Virus record (IMG/VR): IMGVR_UViG_3300047554_000100
Coordinates: 1 to 23,896 of that record
Direction: 5' to 3' (one strand)
Length of the DNA stretch: 23,896 nucleotides
DNA from: a virus
Shown here: positions 6,244 through 16,997 of the stretch, piece after piece
Layout of the letters: each line of letters opens with the position of its first letter
How positions within the stretch are numbered: the first letter of the stretch is position 1
Position numbers and translations under genes: made by a program
Notes under the pieces: generated by a model
What the model was told of the DNA's origin: nothing
Databases searched by the model: none
Seen by the model: only the letters and a program-made list of their open reading frames with translations

Positions 6244-6271
6244 ATCTGTCCCTTTCAAAAGACATAATAAA

Positions 6272-6299
6272 AAGGATGTTTTATCCCTACGACATCCTT
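6272..6299 (-). promoter_or_regulatory. Hairpin in leader of the packaging operon
   Basis: AAGGATGT (6272-6279) and ACATCCTT (6292-6299) form a perfect 8-bp inverted repeat with a 12-nt loop. It lies about 30 nt upstream of the first leftward gene, inside the leader made from the promoter at 6534-6562. It could stabilise the 5' end or control translation; no U-run follows, so it is not a clear terminator. Confidence 0.45.
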
Positions 6300-6311
6300 A
6301 AACGTAGTGAA

Positions 6312-6330
6312 AGCCAGTAGAGTACTGGTT
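6312..6330. promoter_or_regulatory. Palindrome CCAGTA-GAG-TACTGG, possible operator
   Basis: CCAGTA (6314-6319) and TACTGG (6323-6328) are perfect 6-bp arms around a 3-bp centre; the symmetry extends weakly outward. The same CCAGTA...TACTG arms recur at 7049-7062, next to the rightward promoter. Shared arms at both ends of a divergent region suggest binding by one dimeric regulator; this is inferred. Confidence 0.45.
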
Positions 6331-6505
6331 AGATCTTTAGAATCTTTTAAATCTTTAACGTACAGGAATCTAAGGTAAATATATTATTTATGTATATACT
6401 TAACTTAGTTCCCTTACAGGTGTACGTAATCCTGTCTTAGGTAACTTAGAAGTGGCCCAGTCTTCTTAGTTACTTTAGAGTCTTTACCTTGAGTTCCTGA
6501 TCTGT

Positions 6506-6535
6506 TTGTCTTTGTCTCTAACAGATACCTATAAT
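6506..6535 (+). promoter_or_regulatory. Possible weak rightward sigma-70 promoter overlapping the leftward one
   Basis: TTGTCT (6506-6511), an 18-bp spacer and a perfect TATAAT (6530-6535) read rightward. The -10 shares bases with the leftward TACAAT, so the core CTATAATTGTA can act as a -10 on both strands. Transcription from here would run through the repeat cluster at 6707-6937. The -35 is weak, so confidence is low. Confidence 0.35.
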
Positions 6536-6562
6536 TGTATCACGTTTTTCCCTTCATGTCAA
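6534..6562 (-). promoter_or_regulatory. Strong leftward sigma-70 promoter of the packaging/head operon
   Basis: On the minus strand a perfect -35 TTGACA (6562-6557) is followed by a 17-bp spacer and -10 TACAAT (6539-6534). TGA sits immediately before the -10, giving an extended -10. Upstream, at about 6565-6605, the same strand has phased A- and T-tracts (AAAATATTTTAAAAAAA), typical of an UP element bound by the RNA polymerase alpha subunit. Transcription would start near 6528, leaving a leader of about 285 nt before the first gene. This indicates use of host RNA polymerase for these genes. Confidence 0.8.
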
Positions 6563-6609
6563 GTCTTTTCTTCATCTTTTTTTAAAATATTTTCTTTTTT
6601 ATCTATAGA

Positions 6610-6623
6610 GTCACCTAAGTGAC
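6610..6623. promoter_or_regulatory. Short palindrome GTCAC-CTAA-GTGAC
   Basis: A perfect 5-bp inverted repeat with a 4-nt centre lies just upstream of the UP-like A-tracts of the leftward promoter. It could be a regulator site or a small hairpin. There is no further support. Confidence 0.3.
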
Positions 6624-6706
6624 ACTTATAAGTTCCCACTTTCAGGGTGCACAGCATCTCGCATAAGCCCTACACTTAACATAATATTTATCTTTACATG
6701 ACAGGA

Positions 6707-6937
6707 ACTTACGAGTTTACTTACAAGTAGCTCTTCTGTCCCCAATTATTCTTAGTTTTACTCTTTTGTGAACGGTAGAGGCTCCGTCAAAGTCTCTCAC
6801 ACATCCATACCCCTCCCCCCTATCAAGATATGCTTATATAGTTATATAAGTCCATGCTTATATGCTCATATGCTTATATAAGTCTATGTCTATATGCTTA
6901 TATAGTTATACTTACAAGAAACTTACGTGAAACTTAC
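6707..6937. repeat. Five ACTTAC repeats with helical spacing
   Basis: ACTTAC occurs at 6707-6712, 6719-6724, 6910-6915, 6921-6926 and 6932-6937. The step within each group is 11 or 12 bp, about one turn of the helix. The two groups flank the AT-rich ATATGCTTATATA cluster. Such phasing is typical of cooperative binding sites for an initiator or regulator; that function is inferred. Confidence 0.5.
6828..6910. repeat. AT-rich direct repeats (ATATGCTTATATA), origin-like
   Basis: The 13-mer ATATGCTTATATA occurs exactly at 6828-6840, 6868-6880 and 6892-6904, with a partial copy around 6854. The first and third copies extend to an identical 19-mer, ATATGCTTATATAGTTATA. The segment is almost entirely A/T and lies beside a pyrimidine-rich strand. 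Iteron-like repeats plus easily melted DNA in the only long gene-free stretch suggest a replication origin; this is not proven. Confidence 0.55.
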
Positions 6938-7034
6938 ATTGTCGTCAGAGTCACGTTAGAGTAACATTTCAGATGGTGGGATGTGAGGGACGGTGTAGCA
7001 CCCTATCAAGGTAACCTAGAACATACCTGTATAG

Positions 7035-7062
7035 TTATCCAGTATTATCCAGTATAGTACTG
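7035..7062. promoter_or_regulatory. Tandem TTATCCAGTA repeats and CCAGTA-TAG-TACTG palindrome
   Basis: TTATCCAGTA is repeated without a gap at 7035-7044 and 7045-7054. The second copy forms a palindrome with TACTG at 7058-7062. The site lies about 30-55 bp upstream of the -35 of the rightward promoter. A second tandem pair, TGTAAAGA at 7070-7077 and 7080-7087, follows. All repeat steps are 10 bp, so bound proteins would lie on one face of the helix. It is a probable operator or activator array. Confidence 0.5.
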
Positions 7063-7090
7063 TATGCTGTGTAAAGAATTGTAAAGATAG

Positions 7091-7118
7091 TGGACAAGCT
7101 AAAAATCTATGTTATAGT
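7091..7118 (+). promoter_or_regulatory. Rightward sigma-70-like early promoter
   Basis: TGGACA (7091-7096), a 16-bp spacer and TATAGT (7113-7118) match sigma-70 at 5/6 in each hexamer. It is the last promoter-like element before the first rightward gene at 7169 and would start transcription near 7125. Repeats directly upstream suggest regulation. Confidence 0.6.
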
Positions 7119-7168
7119 TCATCCATGTTCAACACAAACACCAGCCGCAAGGCGCAGGAGCAAACATC

Positions 7169-13884: not shown

Positions 13885-15559
13885 AGACCTTGACACTGAA
13901 GAAGTAAAGACATGGAAAGAAGCAAAGCCATTTCAGGACTATATAAAGGACGCTACGTTGATCGTAGCTCACAACGGCATCGGGTTCGACTTTCCAGTGT
14001 TGAACAGGCAATGGAATACGAAGATTGGATTGAAGAGAGTATTCGATACGTTGATAGTAAGCAGGCTACTCGATCCGAGTCGAGAACAAGGCCACAGCCT
14101 AGAGGCTTGGGGGAATACTCTCAAGTTTCAGAAGATTAACTACAAGGCTACATGGCAGTGGCTACAGGGAAGACGAGAAGAATATGACGGAGAATGTTTC
14201 GACAAACCTATTGATAGTCTTATGGAGCATTATTGCTCTAGGGACGTTGAAGTTTGTGCTAAACTGTATCTTAAACTATGCAATGATCTCAATGAGAAAC
14301 AGTTTTCGCAAGATTCTGTTGAGTTGGAACATAAAGTCGCGGCTATAATCGCAGAACAGGAAAGAAATGGATTCAAATTGGACACCGTTTGGGCCACTTG
14401 TCTACTTACTGACATCAAAGGAAAAATGGCAGGAATATATGAGCAGATGCAACATAGATGGCCTCCCTACGAAGTACCACGAGTCAGTGAGAAAACAGGA
14501 AAGCAACTCAAACCCTTGTGCGTTACTTTCAACCCCGGCTCTCGAAAGCAAATCGGAGAAAAGCTGATAGAGCTTGGATGGAAGCCTAAGAAGTTTACCG
14601 AGACTGGTCAGGCTATGGTCGATGAGGGTACACTCTCAGAGATCAAGAACATTCCTGAAGCAGCTATGATCGCTGAGTATCTGATGCTGCAGAAACGAGT
14701 GGCACAGATCGAGAGCTGGTTAGAGGCTGTGAAGGATGATGGCAGGGTTCACGGTAAGGTCATTACCAACGGAGCAGTGACAGGCCGAGCTACGCATAGT
14801 AGTCCGAACATGGGGCAGGTTCCAAACACATCATCCATTTATGGCGCTGAGTGTCGAGAGTGTTGGACTGTGGAAGAAGGCAACGTGCAGGTTGGCGTGG
14901 ATTTATCTGGGATTGAGTTGCGTTGTTTGTCTCACTATATGCAAGACGCTGAATGGCAGCATGAATTGCTTGAAGGAGATGTGCATTGGAAGAACACACA
15001 AGCTTTTGGACTTGTTCCAATGGGTACTGTGAAGGAAGACATCAAGGAGCATAAAGATGCACGTAATTTGAGTAAGACATTAACCTATTCTGTGCTCTAC
15101 GGCGCAGGCCCTGCTAAGGTAGGCTCAACTGTTGGAGGGTCTGCTAAAGAAGGTGGTAAACTGATTGACAACTTCATGAAGAATACCCCTTCATTGAGGA
15201 AGTTGAAAGACAAGGTTGATAAGTTTTCTGCTAAAGGATGGGTTCCGGGATTAGATGGTAGAAAGATATGGGTGCGTAGTGAACACGCTGCACTCAACAG
15301 TCTGCTACAATCTGCTGGAGCTATTATTGCAAAGAAGTGGATTGTGTGCTTTACAGAAGAACTTAAAGCTAAGAAGATTCCTTATAAACTTCTAGCATGG
15401 GTTCATGATGAAGTACAGATTGAAACTAAACCGGAGTATGGCGACATGGTAGGTAAAATTGTTGTAGAATCTGCTCGAAGGGCAGGAGAGCTTTTGAAGT
15501 TTAGATGTCCAGTGGATGCTGAGTATCGCATTGGGAAGAACTGGCATGACTGTCACTAA
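13817..15559 (+). CDS. Family A DNA polymerase with 3'-5' exonuclease (T7 gp5-like)
   Basis: 580 aa. The exonuclease has DIET with D7 and E9, AHNGIGFDF with D58, and HYCSRD with Y140 and D144, so it is complete. In the polymerase, motif A is VDLSGIELR with D362, motif B is RNLSKTLTY with R416, K420 and Y424, and motif C is VHDEVQ with H530 to E532. Tyr at the O-helix position is T7-like, where E. coli Pol I has Phe. The thumb region between 'MQHRW' and 'VTFNPGSR' is much shorter than in T7, so the thioredoxin-binding insertion looks absent. The start must be near 13817 because the first catalytic Asp is residue 7; the ribosome-binding site is weak. Confidence 0.95.
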   Translation: MKRIVLDIETDLSHQKIHLVITKDLDTEEVKTWKEAKPFQDYIKDATLIVAHNGIGFDFPVLNRQWNTKIGLKRVFDTLIVSRLLDPSREQGHSLEAWGNTLKFQKINYKATWQWLQGRREEYDGECFDKPIDSLMEHYCSRDVEVCAKLYLKLCNDLNEKQFSQDSVELEHKVAAIIAEQERNGFKLDTVWATCLLTDIKGKMAGIYEQMQHRWPPYEVPRVSEKTGKQLKPLCVTFNPGSRKQIGEKLIELGWKPKKFTETGQAMVDEGTLSEIKNIPEAAMIAEYLMLQKRVAQIESWLEAVKDDGRVHGKVITNGAVTGRATHSSPNMGQVPNTSSIYGAECRECWTVEEGNVQVGVDLSGIELRCLSHYMQDAEWQHELLEGDVHWKNTQAFGLVPMGTVKEDIKEHKDARNLSKTLTYSVLYGAGPAKVGSTVGGSAKEGGKLIDNFMKNTPSLRKLKDKVDKFSAKGWVPGLDGRKIWVRSEHAALNSLLQSAGAIIAKKWIVCFTEELKAKKIPYKLLAWVHDEVQIETKPEYGDMVGKIVVESARRAGELLKFRCPVDAEYRIGKNWHDCH

Positions 15560-15935
15560 GTATCCAAACGGTTATTTCAAAGATAAGAAGTGTAAGACCT
15601 GTATTAATGTCTTTACTCCTTCTAATCCTTGTCAGCTCTATTGCTCTACGAAGTGTCGTGGTAAGAACTCTTACTATAAAAGGAATTATGGAATAGATGA
15701 GGCTGATCTTGAACAGATGAAGAAAGATCAAGACTACAAATGTTATATCTGTGGTTCGGAAGGCTTCTTGATTGGTAAAAACAATCATAATGAAAAGCTT
15801 GCAGTAGACCATGACCATAAAACAGGCAAAGTAAGGAAGCTTCTTTGTCATAACTGTAACCGTGCTTTAGGTTTGTTACAAGACAATCCGGAGCTACTAA
15901 GAAAGGCAGCTTCGTATGTCGAAGAACACAAATAA
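15546..15935 (+). CDS. Recombination endonuclease VII-like resolvase
   Basis: 129 aa. Endonuclease VII-type enzymes cut branched DNA such as Holliday junctions before packaging. An N-terminal zinc-ribbon-like section has C16, C19, C29, C33 and C37. The nuclease core has CYICG (66-70), LAVDHDHKTGKVR with the DHDH at 88-91, and LLCHNCNRALG (C101, C104, N105). This is the HNH/beta-beta-alpha-metal pattern of the T4 gp49 family. The ATG at 15546 overlaps the polymerase stop by 14 nt, with GGGAAG upstream; a longer frame from 15516 would lie inside polymerase. The C-terminus overlaps the next gene by 20 nt. Confidence 0.88.
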   Translation: MTVTKYPNGYFKDKKCKTCINVFTPSNPCQLYCSTKCRGKNSYYKRNYGIDEADLEQMKKDQDYKCYICGSEGFLIGKNNHNEKLAVDHDHKTGKVRKLLCHNCNRALGLLQDNPELLRKAASYVEEHK

Positions 15936-16101
15936 ACTTGTAGGTACAATCACCATTGATGTCTATGAGGATAGCTTTGAAGTTAAGGCTTCAGAGAAGA
16001 TTGACTTGATGACTGTATGGATGGTTGCTACAGGAATGCAAGATTATTTAGAAGAACTTGCTGAAACACTTGACACAGCACCATCTTCTATGATACACTA
16101 A
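15916..16101 (+). CDS. Small acidic phage protein of unknown function
   Basis: 61 aa: a beta-rich start (KLVGTITIDVYEDSFEVKAS) and a helical, acidic second half (VATGMQDYLEELAETLDTA). The start overlaps the endonuclease VII-like gene by 20 nt; a weak AGG lies about 10 nt upstream. No family is recognised. It is the last protein gene but one before the tRNA pair. Confidence 0.55.
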   Translation: MSKNTNKLVGTITIDVYEDSFEVKASEKIDLMTVWMVATGMQDYLEELAETLDTAPSSMIH

Positions 16102-16299: not shown

Positions 16300-16384
16300 G
16301 GACGATTGGTGAAATAGGTAAACACAGGAGACTTAAAATCTCCCGCCGAAAGGTTTGAGAGTTCGATTCTCTCATCGTCCACCA
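16300..16384 (+). tRNA. tRNA-Leu (anticodon TAA)
   Basis: The acceptor arms GGACGAT and ATCGTCC pair perfectly over 7 bp, followed by an encoded ACCA. The D-stem is GTG/CAC. The anticodon stem GGAGA/TCTCC encloses CTTAAAA, giving anticodon TAA, which reads UUA. The variable arm is long (about 13 nt, with GCC-GAAA-GGT), as in class II leucine tRNAs. The T-arm is GAGAG-TTCGATT-CTCTC. The structure looks fully functional. Confidence 0.93.
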
Positions 16385-16389
16385 AACAC

Positions 16390-16464
16390 GCCGAATTAGC
16401 ACAGTGGTAGTGCAGTCGCCTTGTAAGCGAAAGGTCAGGGGTTCAAATCCTCTATTCGGCACCA
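16390..16464 (+). tRNA. tRNA-Thr (anticodon TGT)
   Basis: GCCGAAT and ATTCGGC form a perfect acceptor stem, followed by ACCA. The D-stem is GCAC/GTGC, and the anticodon loop CTTGTAA gives TGT, reading ACA. The T-arm AGGGG-TTCAAAT-CCTCT is good. The first anticodon-stem pair (G-A) is a mismatch, a small weakness. It lies 5 nt after tRNA-Leu. Confidence 0.92.
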
Positions 16465-16472
16465 TTTTTGAC

Positions 16473-16564
16473 AGCTTGATCCGTCACCTTCTCTGCGTAG
16501 CGGGGAGGAAGCTCCGGGAGTTCCGGAGGGCAGTGACCTAGTAGTATGGTAAGCTAGTTTTTTT
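16473..16564 (+). ncRNA. GC-rich multi-stem RNA ending in a T-run (candidate ncRNA or leader)
   Basis: AGCTT (16473-16477) can pair with AAGCT (16551-16555), and ATC with GGT next to it. Inside, GTCAC (16483-16487) pairs with GTGAC (16533-16537). That stem encloses two hairpins: CTTCTC-type pairing with GGGGAG (16488-16507) and a perfect CTCCGG-GAGTT-CCGGAG (16512-16528). Seven T (16558-16564) follow, just before the AAAGGA of the SSB gene. It lies in the 113-nt gap between tRNA-Thr and SSB, which has no ORF. It may be a small RNA, a terminator or attenuator, or a regulated SSB leader; the structure is hand-folded. Confidence 0.45.
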
Positions 16565-16577
16565 AAAGGAAAATGAA

Positions 16578-16997
16578 ATGGATATGAAGCCTGTAAAGAT
16601 CGGTGGTGAACTCTTCTGGAGCAATTGGATGCATAACTTCAATACGAAGTTCAATGAGGACAACAAGAAGTATGAATGCACAATCGGTAATCTTTCTGAT
16701 AAGGCTGCTGAAGCTCTGAAGGAACTGGGTATCCAGATCAAAGAGAAAGATACGATGGGTAAGTACATTGTCGGTAAGAGCTTGTATAAGTTTGAGCCTG
16801 TGGACAATGATGGTAACAAGGTAGATATTGAGCGTATTGGTAACGGCACTAAAGTTACCGCTCTGGTGTCTAGCTATCGTCATAAGATGTCTGCTAAATA
16901 TGGTGCTGCTCCATCTATCAAGATGCTGATCGTCACTGAGCTTAAGGAGTACAATCCTGAGCCGAAAGACTCTGAAGAAGATGACGACATCCTCTAA
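16578..16997 (+). CDS. T7 gp2.5-like single-stranded DNA-binding protein
   Basis: 139 aa. It would coat single-stranded DNA and recruit polymerase and helicase. The call rests on size, position among replication genes, an OB-fold-like alternating strand pattern ('YECTIGNLSDKAA', 'KYIVGKSLYKFEPVD', 'TKVTALVSSYRHKM'), and an acidic tail ending EEDDDIL. In T7 gp2.5 such a tail binds the partner proteins. The 'GN.(T)KV.A....YR....  .G..P.IK.....EL.EY' segment is typical of podovirus SSBs. AAAGGA lies upstream of the ATG at 16578; a competing ATG at 16573 stops after four codons. The gene overlaps the exonuclease by 17 nt. Confidence 0.85.
   Translation: MDMKPVKIGGELFWSNWMHNFNTKFNEDNKKYECTIGNLSDKAAEALKELGIQIKEKDTMGKYIVGKSLYKFEPVDNDGNKVDIERIGNGTKVTALVSSYRHKMSAKYGAAPSIKMLIVTELKEYNPEPKDSEEDDDIL

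Follow-up and report, generated by a model that had tools for sequence, protein, structure and literature searches.

The DNA under study, called the window below, is a stretch of 23,896 nt from a virus (positions 1–23,896 of IMG/VR record IMGVR_UViG_3300047554_000100). Its plus strand carries two tRNA genes, a structured RNA element and the ssb gene, in this order. A sigma-70-like promoter, TTGACA-18-TACACT (16070–16099), a match from a consensus scan, is the probable start of the transcript comprising the tRNAs, the RNA and ssb. The tRNA genes, recognized by both ARAGORN and Rfam, encode tRNA-Leu(TAA) (16300–16384), the commonest tRNA just 5′ of the element in the homologues, and tRNA-Thr(TGT) (16390–16464), whose ACCA end lies 8 nt from the element. 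The complete conserved element occupies positions 16473–16557 (89.4 bits with the R1/R2 covariance model) and is followed by seven T (16558–16564), the ssb ribosome-binding site AAAGGA and ssb itself (16578–16997), the likely target of the element. A recombination-endonuclease-VII-type ORF (15516–15935) is placed between the DNA polymerase gene and the tRNA/ssb interval, and comparable ORFs are found there in several relatives. Elsewhere in the window, a stretch of about 870 nt (6259–7124) contains no listed ORF of at least 60 aa and is bordered by minus-strand genes on one side and plus-strand genes on the other.

The gene downstream of the element, already taken for ssb in the first-pass annotation, is predicted to encode an OB-fold protein of the gp2.5/Enc34 type with an acidic tail. 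Its product matched no Pfam or PHROGs sequence profile. The AlphaFold2 model (pLDDT 81.8) was matched by Foldseek to the SSB of phage Enc34 (5odk, E 5e-5) and to T7 gp2.5 (1je5, E 1e-4); the assignment as a gp2.5/Enc34-type SSB is confirmed only by this predicted fold.

Structure and covariation of the element

The first-pass annotation had described a GC-rich structured segment between the tRNAs and ssb. Its placement was right, as tRNA-Thr ends at 16464 and the ssb ORF starts at 16578, and covariation supported the structure. The GC content is indeed higher in the element (58% versus 43% window-wide), but only within the top 1.9% of 85-nt stretches, hence composition by itself proves nothing. 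Single-strand folding recovered the annotated outer stem, the closed junction, its closing stem being GUCAC/GUGAC, and a pair of hairpins that includes CUCCGG/CCGGAG. The stability of this fold did not exceed that of dinucleotide-shuffled sequences (z −0.61; 50 of 200 shuffles equal or better), and thermodynamic stability was rejected as a proof of structure. Since neither stability nor GC content stood out, the proof had to be comparative.

Homologues were collected by pattern scans of IMG/VR and then scored with the covariance model. At least 37 distinct homologues were obtained on approximately 45 contigs of diverse uncultured phages, mostly from freshwater; all 37 members scored at least 61.9 bits, the best chance matches being near 21. 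The 5′ strand was left free in three of the pattern scans, in one of them together with the loop half (A2) that pairs with it. The final scan, with stem C and GGCAG free, returned known members only, which indicates that these parts are conserved independently of the search patterns. Two loosely defined, gapped patterns, TTGATCC...GTAGTATGG and AGCTTGATCC...GGNAGTG, gave L094 and L239, the matches listed being mostly random. Each member contig examined carried a single copy, and four near-full-length relatives carried none. BLAST searches of isolated phages and plasmids found no member, only tRNA or chance matches, and the five matches from a pattern scan of bacterial genomes (UAUGG form only) were all assigned to chance by sequence or score. 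The homologue set and its consensus offer a ready basis for in vitro work on cleavage, SSB binding and in-line probing.

The architecture common to the homologues is a three-way junction, built of stem B and hairpins 1 and 2, closed by a pseudoknot between the 5′ strand AGCUUGAUCY and the loop of the 3′ hairpin C. The consensus reads 5′ YAGCUUGAUCY - B1 - hairpin 1 - AAG - hairpin 2 - GGCA - B2 - C1 - UAnUAU - (G/A)GUAAG - C2. In the window, the element starts with the nearly invariant A1 (AGCUUGAUCC, 16473–16482), the 5′ strand of pseudoknot helix A; the final base of A1 covaries with the A2 loop. The junction-closing stem B is formed by B1 (GUCAC, 16483–16487) and B2 (GUGAC, 16533–16537), with compensatory changes in four of five pairs and 100% pairing. 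Enclosed by it are hairpin 1 (16488–16508), variable in sequence and length, with both-side changes in all seven pairs, and hairpin 2 (CUCCG...CGGAG, 16512–16528), with a variable apex and both-side changes in all five pairs. Comparison of the homologues showed the junction strands AAG (16509–16511) and GGCA (16529–16532, left free in one search pattern) to be nearly invariant. Hairpin C (CUAG-UAGUAUGGUAAG-CUAG, 16538–16557) ends the element; its stem reads CCUG/CAGG and CCAG/CUGG in homologues, and the 3′ half of its loop, GGUAAG (A2, 16548–16553), pairs with A1. The first-pass annotation had missed this third hairpin (CTAG-TAGTATGGTAAG-CTAG in the DNA) and its pseudoknot with the 5′ strand.

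Compensatory changes in homologous intervals, the absence of which that annotation had named as evidence against its own proposal, were found and strongly favour a structure. RNAalifold applied to the first 16 members gave 22 pairs, 17 of them with a compensatory change. When the pseudoknot was written in and all 37 members were used, 94.4% of cells were paired versus 80.3% in shuffles, both-side changes occurred in 19 of 26 pairs, and the covariation score was 0.423 versus 0.162 for shuffles; none of 500 shuffles was as high in either of the latter two measures. In a control with the partners slid, pairing was only 33–44%. Covariation was seen in every helix, and 66 pair-class changes were counted on a tree built from the elements themselves, so the event counts are approximate.

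One pair of helix A varied (C-G in 19 members, U-A in 18, mismatch in none), with approximately three changes on this tree, and the other four pairs were invariant. Two pairs of hairpin C varied, with 100% pairing. As both helices are supported, the pseudoknot is the simplest model, the other option being helices that alternate, and we infer that helix A and hairpin C form simultaneously. Two other pairing schemes were discarded. In the plain nested outer stem of the first-pass annotation and of minimum-free-energy folding, helix A itself was kept, but hairpin C is supported too. An HDV-like scheme, in which CUU would pair with the junction AAG, can be drawn on paper, but both sides are invariant and the A1–A2 covariation contradicts it as the main pairing.

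G-U pairs are numerous (e.g., U-G at one position in 28 of 37 members), which fits RNA better than DNA. The junction and loop nucleotides are near-invariant and the apices of the hairpins range in size from a few to more than 40 nt; conservation centred on the junction and pseudoknot points to a folded active or recognition site rather than to an antisense seed. Judged from these comparisons, the segment 16473–16557 is a genuine structured RNA.

Genomic context and cassette exchange

The element is sense-oriented and stands before ssb in nearly all members, usually directly, in the recurring order DNA polymerase A, a variable set of endonuclease VII-type ORF, small ORF and tRNA, then the element, ssb and a 5′-3′ exonuclease gene. 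In 19 of the 37 members, its 5′ edge lies 3–8 nt past the CCA of a tRNA, nearly always tRNA-Leu(UAA); the remaining 18 have no directly adjoining tRNA. Five members (L084, L086, L207, L422 and L482) have the element 3–27 nt behind a −10 box. Altogether, about two-thirds of members have the 5′ edge either a few nucleotides from the 3′ end of a tRNA or a short way behind a promoter, and many homologues have, ahead of the tRNA or of the element, a promoter resembling the sigma-70-like one of the window, also matched by consensus. On the other side, the distance to the ssb start ranges from 20 nt, as in the window, to 113 nt, and in some loci the gap is occupied by further structured RNAs or, in L428, by a small ORF. 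The exception to the order is L208, with ssb upstream of the element and a primase-helicase gene downstream.

The ssb genes that follow are of several divergent kinds (L213 type, L207 type, L422 and L460), L207 and L460 encoding more divergent relatives of the SSB of the window. The protein in the ssb slot of L422 is of a different kind with no profile match; from its position, we infer that it is also an SSB. The presence of the element is sporadic: it was found in only two of 80 loci in the ssb search and in about one-tenth of the closest 80 ssb loci of the L213 kind, hence ssb expression does not require it. Beside real tRNAs, three loci (L050:768–831, L445:9928–9991 and, on the minus strand, L455:6883–6946) carry a conserved tRNA-like segment of 64 nt, GAGGGCCAAGAACT ... 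GCAACCCTCACC, recognized by neither ARAGORN nor Rfam.

A direct replacement was seen between L393 and L395, which are 97% identical over about 500 nt on either side of the element. Between −6 and +3 relative to the element, L395 has 25 nt instead, containing the hairpin UGACAGCCUGGAAAGACAGGC; by this comparison, the element is an exchangeable cassette. The second RNA hairpin (UGACAGnnnnGGAAAGACnnnnC; consensus UGACAGnnnnG-GA(A/G)AGA-Cnnnn'C, with compensating stem changes) is present in 21 distinct copies, among them L338:2950–2985, L395:2949–2985, L336:2935–2970 and L208:6024–6060. All stand before ssb except that of L208, which precedes the primase gene, and none occurs elsewhere in the scanned loci; the L338 copy had no Rfam match. 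Three loci (L208, L424 and L445) carry both the element and the second hairpin. The restriction of this hairpin to the leader slot and its exact replacement of the element in a 97% identical relative point to a leader-specific role. The cassette-like swap of one conserved RNA for another makes a possible control of ssb by leader RNAs testable in phages other than T4.

Comparison with known RNA families

With Rfam 15 at gathering thresholds, the window and two further sets of 13 and 12 loci yielded only tRNAs, and relaxed thresholds added nothing relevant, only chance matches. The earlier statements that the segment is neither a tRNA nor a known riboswitch core held in these searches: ARAGORN and the Rfam tRNA model (RF00005) detected no cloverleaf or tmRNA in the element, only the two flanking tRNAs, and the comparison with Rfam models suggested at the outset ended with no family matching the element. 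The sole weak Rfam echo inside it was freshwater-2 RNA (RF02980), a hairpin with a U-run and AAAGGA...AUG, which scored 14.1 bits (E 5.7; gathering score 49.9). Freshwater-2 RNA has neither the junction nor the pseudoknot, and the U run in the match is not conserved in the homologues. The element is an RNA fold uncatalogued so far in the part of the literature covered, an earlier description in a subscription journal being possible. With its covariation-supported pseudoknot, it joins the few structured RNAs known from phages.

HDV, hammerhead and other ribozymes of Rfam did not match the element even at E 10. The HDV-like theta ribozymes are small pseudoknotted RNAs positioned a few nucleotides from phage tRNA genes (PMC10879173), and the element shares this neighbourhood. 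The helix order differs, however, since the 5′ strand of the element has its partner in the loop of the final hairpin, and half of the members have no tRNA adjoining. The HDV-like arrangement, with a P1 joining the 5′ strand to the segment that separates P3 from P4, and then P4 and J4/2, was not found: only AAG separates hairpins 1 and 2. The STAXI motif of Weinberg's 2010 set is likewise a pseudoknot near ssb genes, for which a role as single-stranded DNA was considered (PMC2864571). STAXI forms tandem repeats, whereas the element, with its three-way junction, occurs once per contig and had no Rfam match to STAXI.

The leader of T4 gene 32 contains a small H-type pseudoknot without a three-way junction and is the precedent for an SSB acting on its own leader. 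Nearly all members likewise have a leader pseudoknot, supported by covariation, ahead of a phage ssb gene assigned by fold, often with an A/U-rich stretch, as in T4, between pseudoknot and start codon. The three-way junction sets the element apart from the T4 leader, and there is no known sequence similarity between them. GOLLD and ROOL are ornate RNAs associated with phages and tRNAs. Like the element they are structured, but they are much larger (PMC12286853), and neither was matched by Rfam here.

Possible roles of the element

The element probably helps to control the expression of replication genes. With a probability of about 0.5, we consider it a compact pseudoknotted, cis-acting 5′-leader RNA of the ssb/replication transcription unit, setting ssb expression. 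After transcription or tRNA excision it would provide the ssb mRNA with a structured 5′ end, and it may act most likely via a bound protein and/or by shielding this end from decay; by analogy with T4 gene 32, the phage SSB itself is the candidate protein. Such a protein-bound leader element or 5′-end stabilizer would be the best fit, at about even odds. Covariation, the G-U pairs, the position before divergent kinds of ssb, the closeness to tRNAs or −10 boxes and the leader-only second hairpin count for a cis-acting leader, action in cis being favoured by the constant strand and the leader position. The variable spacing to ssb, the RNAs or ORF in between, the order in L208 and the sporadic presence count against it. 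The SSB attenuator of the first-pass annotation comes close to the leader proposed here, but no switching element is conserved. Among the homologues, neither a conserved terminator nor a conserved pairing with the ribosome-binding site was detected, which together with the spacing of 20–113 nt argues against a classical riboswitch or attenuator.

A new class of catalytic or ligand-sensing RNA, a self-cleaving ribozyme or an aptamer heading the phage replication transcript and interchangeable with the shorter hairpin class, is rather unlikely. Unlikely, too, is a stand-alone small RNA excised from the tRNA-containing transcript that would act in trans on a component of the host or of the phage. 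Processing with the tRNAs, as first suggested, would suit the half of the members with the element 3–8 nt past a tRNA, the compact, fully closed fold, the unfixed spacing to ssb and a cassette-like presence resembling that of accessory tRNAs. It accords poorly with the 18 of 37 members without an adjoining tRNA and with an element that is always in sense and nearly always before ssb; moreover, conservation is lowest in the hairpin loops, its possible antisense seeds, which makes regulation by base pairing unlikely.

Two further proposals are somewhat less likely again, and equally so. A self-cleaving ribozyme cutting near its own 5′ edge, which would trim the 3′ trailers of tRNAs or the 5′ end of the mRNA, could account for the invariant core, the sharply defined 5′ boundary, where all 37 members have a pyrimidine at −1, and a tRNA neighbourhood like that of theta ribozymes (PMC10879173), but not for the many members with no tRNA to process, and the pairing of the 5′ strand with a far 3′ loop is unlike the HDV arrangement. 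A processive antitermination RNA similar to HK022 put or EAR would explain why a structured RNA whose loops are invariant stands where the ssb-exonuclease operon begins, in five members shortly after a promoter. Many members are, however, operon-internal, after an ORF, downstream terminators were not identified, and the Rfam searches matched no known antitermination RNA family. A metabolite-sensing riboswitch over the replication genes is more doubtful still: conservation centred on the junction and pseudoknot is aptamer-like, but neither an expression platform nor an Rfam riboswitch match was found. A single-stranded DNA structure serving replication, as proposed for STAXI (PMC2864571), is very improbable in view of the frequent G-U pairs, the location at probable transcript 5′ ends and the single copy. 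Least probable of all is an intrinsic terminator or attenuator that has the seven T as its end: the annotated T run between hairpin C with helix A and the ribosome-binding site is there, but it is peculiar to the window, homologues having A(A/U)(C/U)UUU or another sequence, which makes termination unlikely; the 4-bp terminal stem is weak and not the G+C-rich stem with a conserved U run of such terminators, the terminator scan called no site, and ssb starts 13 nt beyond, with no promoter found between the element and the ssb start.

Other RNAs were also noticed in ssb leaders. A structured-looking RNA with no Rfam match occupies the ssb leader slot in L012 (3519–3573) and L401, in the latter just 5′ of ssb; both loci contain GAAAGCGGATGCTG ... 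CAGACGCAGCGAGTA. A module like TGACGCTATGCCCATAGCATAGAGGGTC occurs in hairpin 2 of the element in L207, L211, L215, L084 and L464 and recurs in the otherwise different leader RNAs before ssb in L342 and L372, as if domains had been exchanged.
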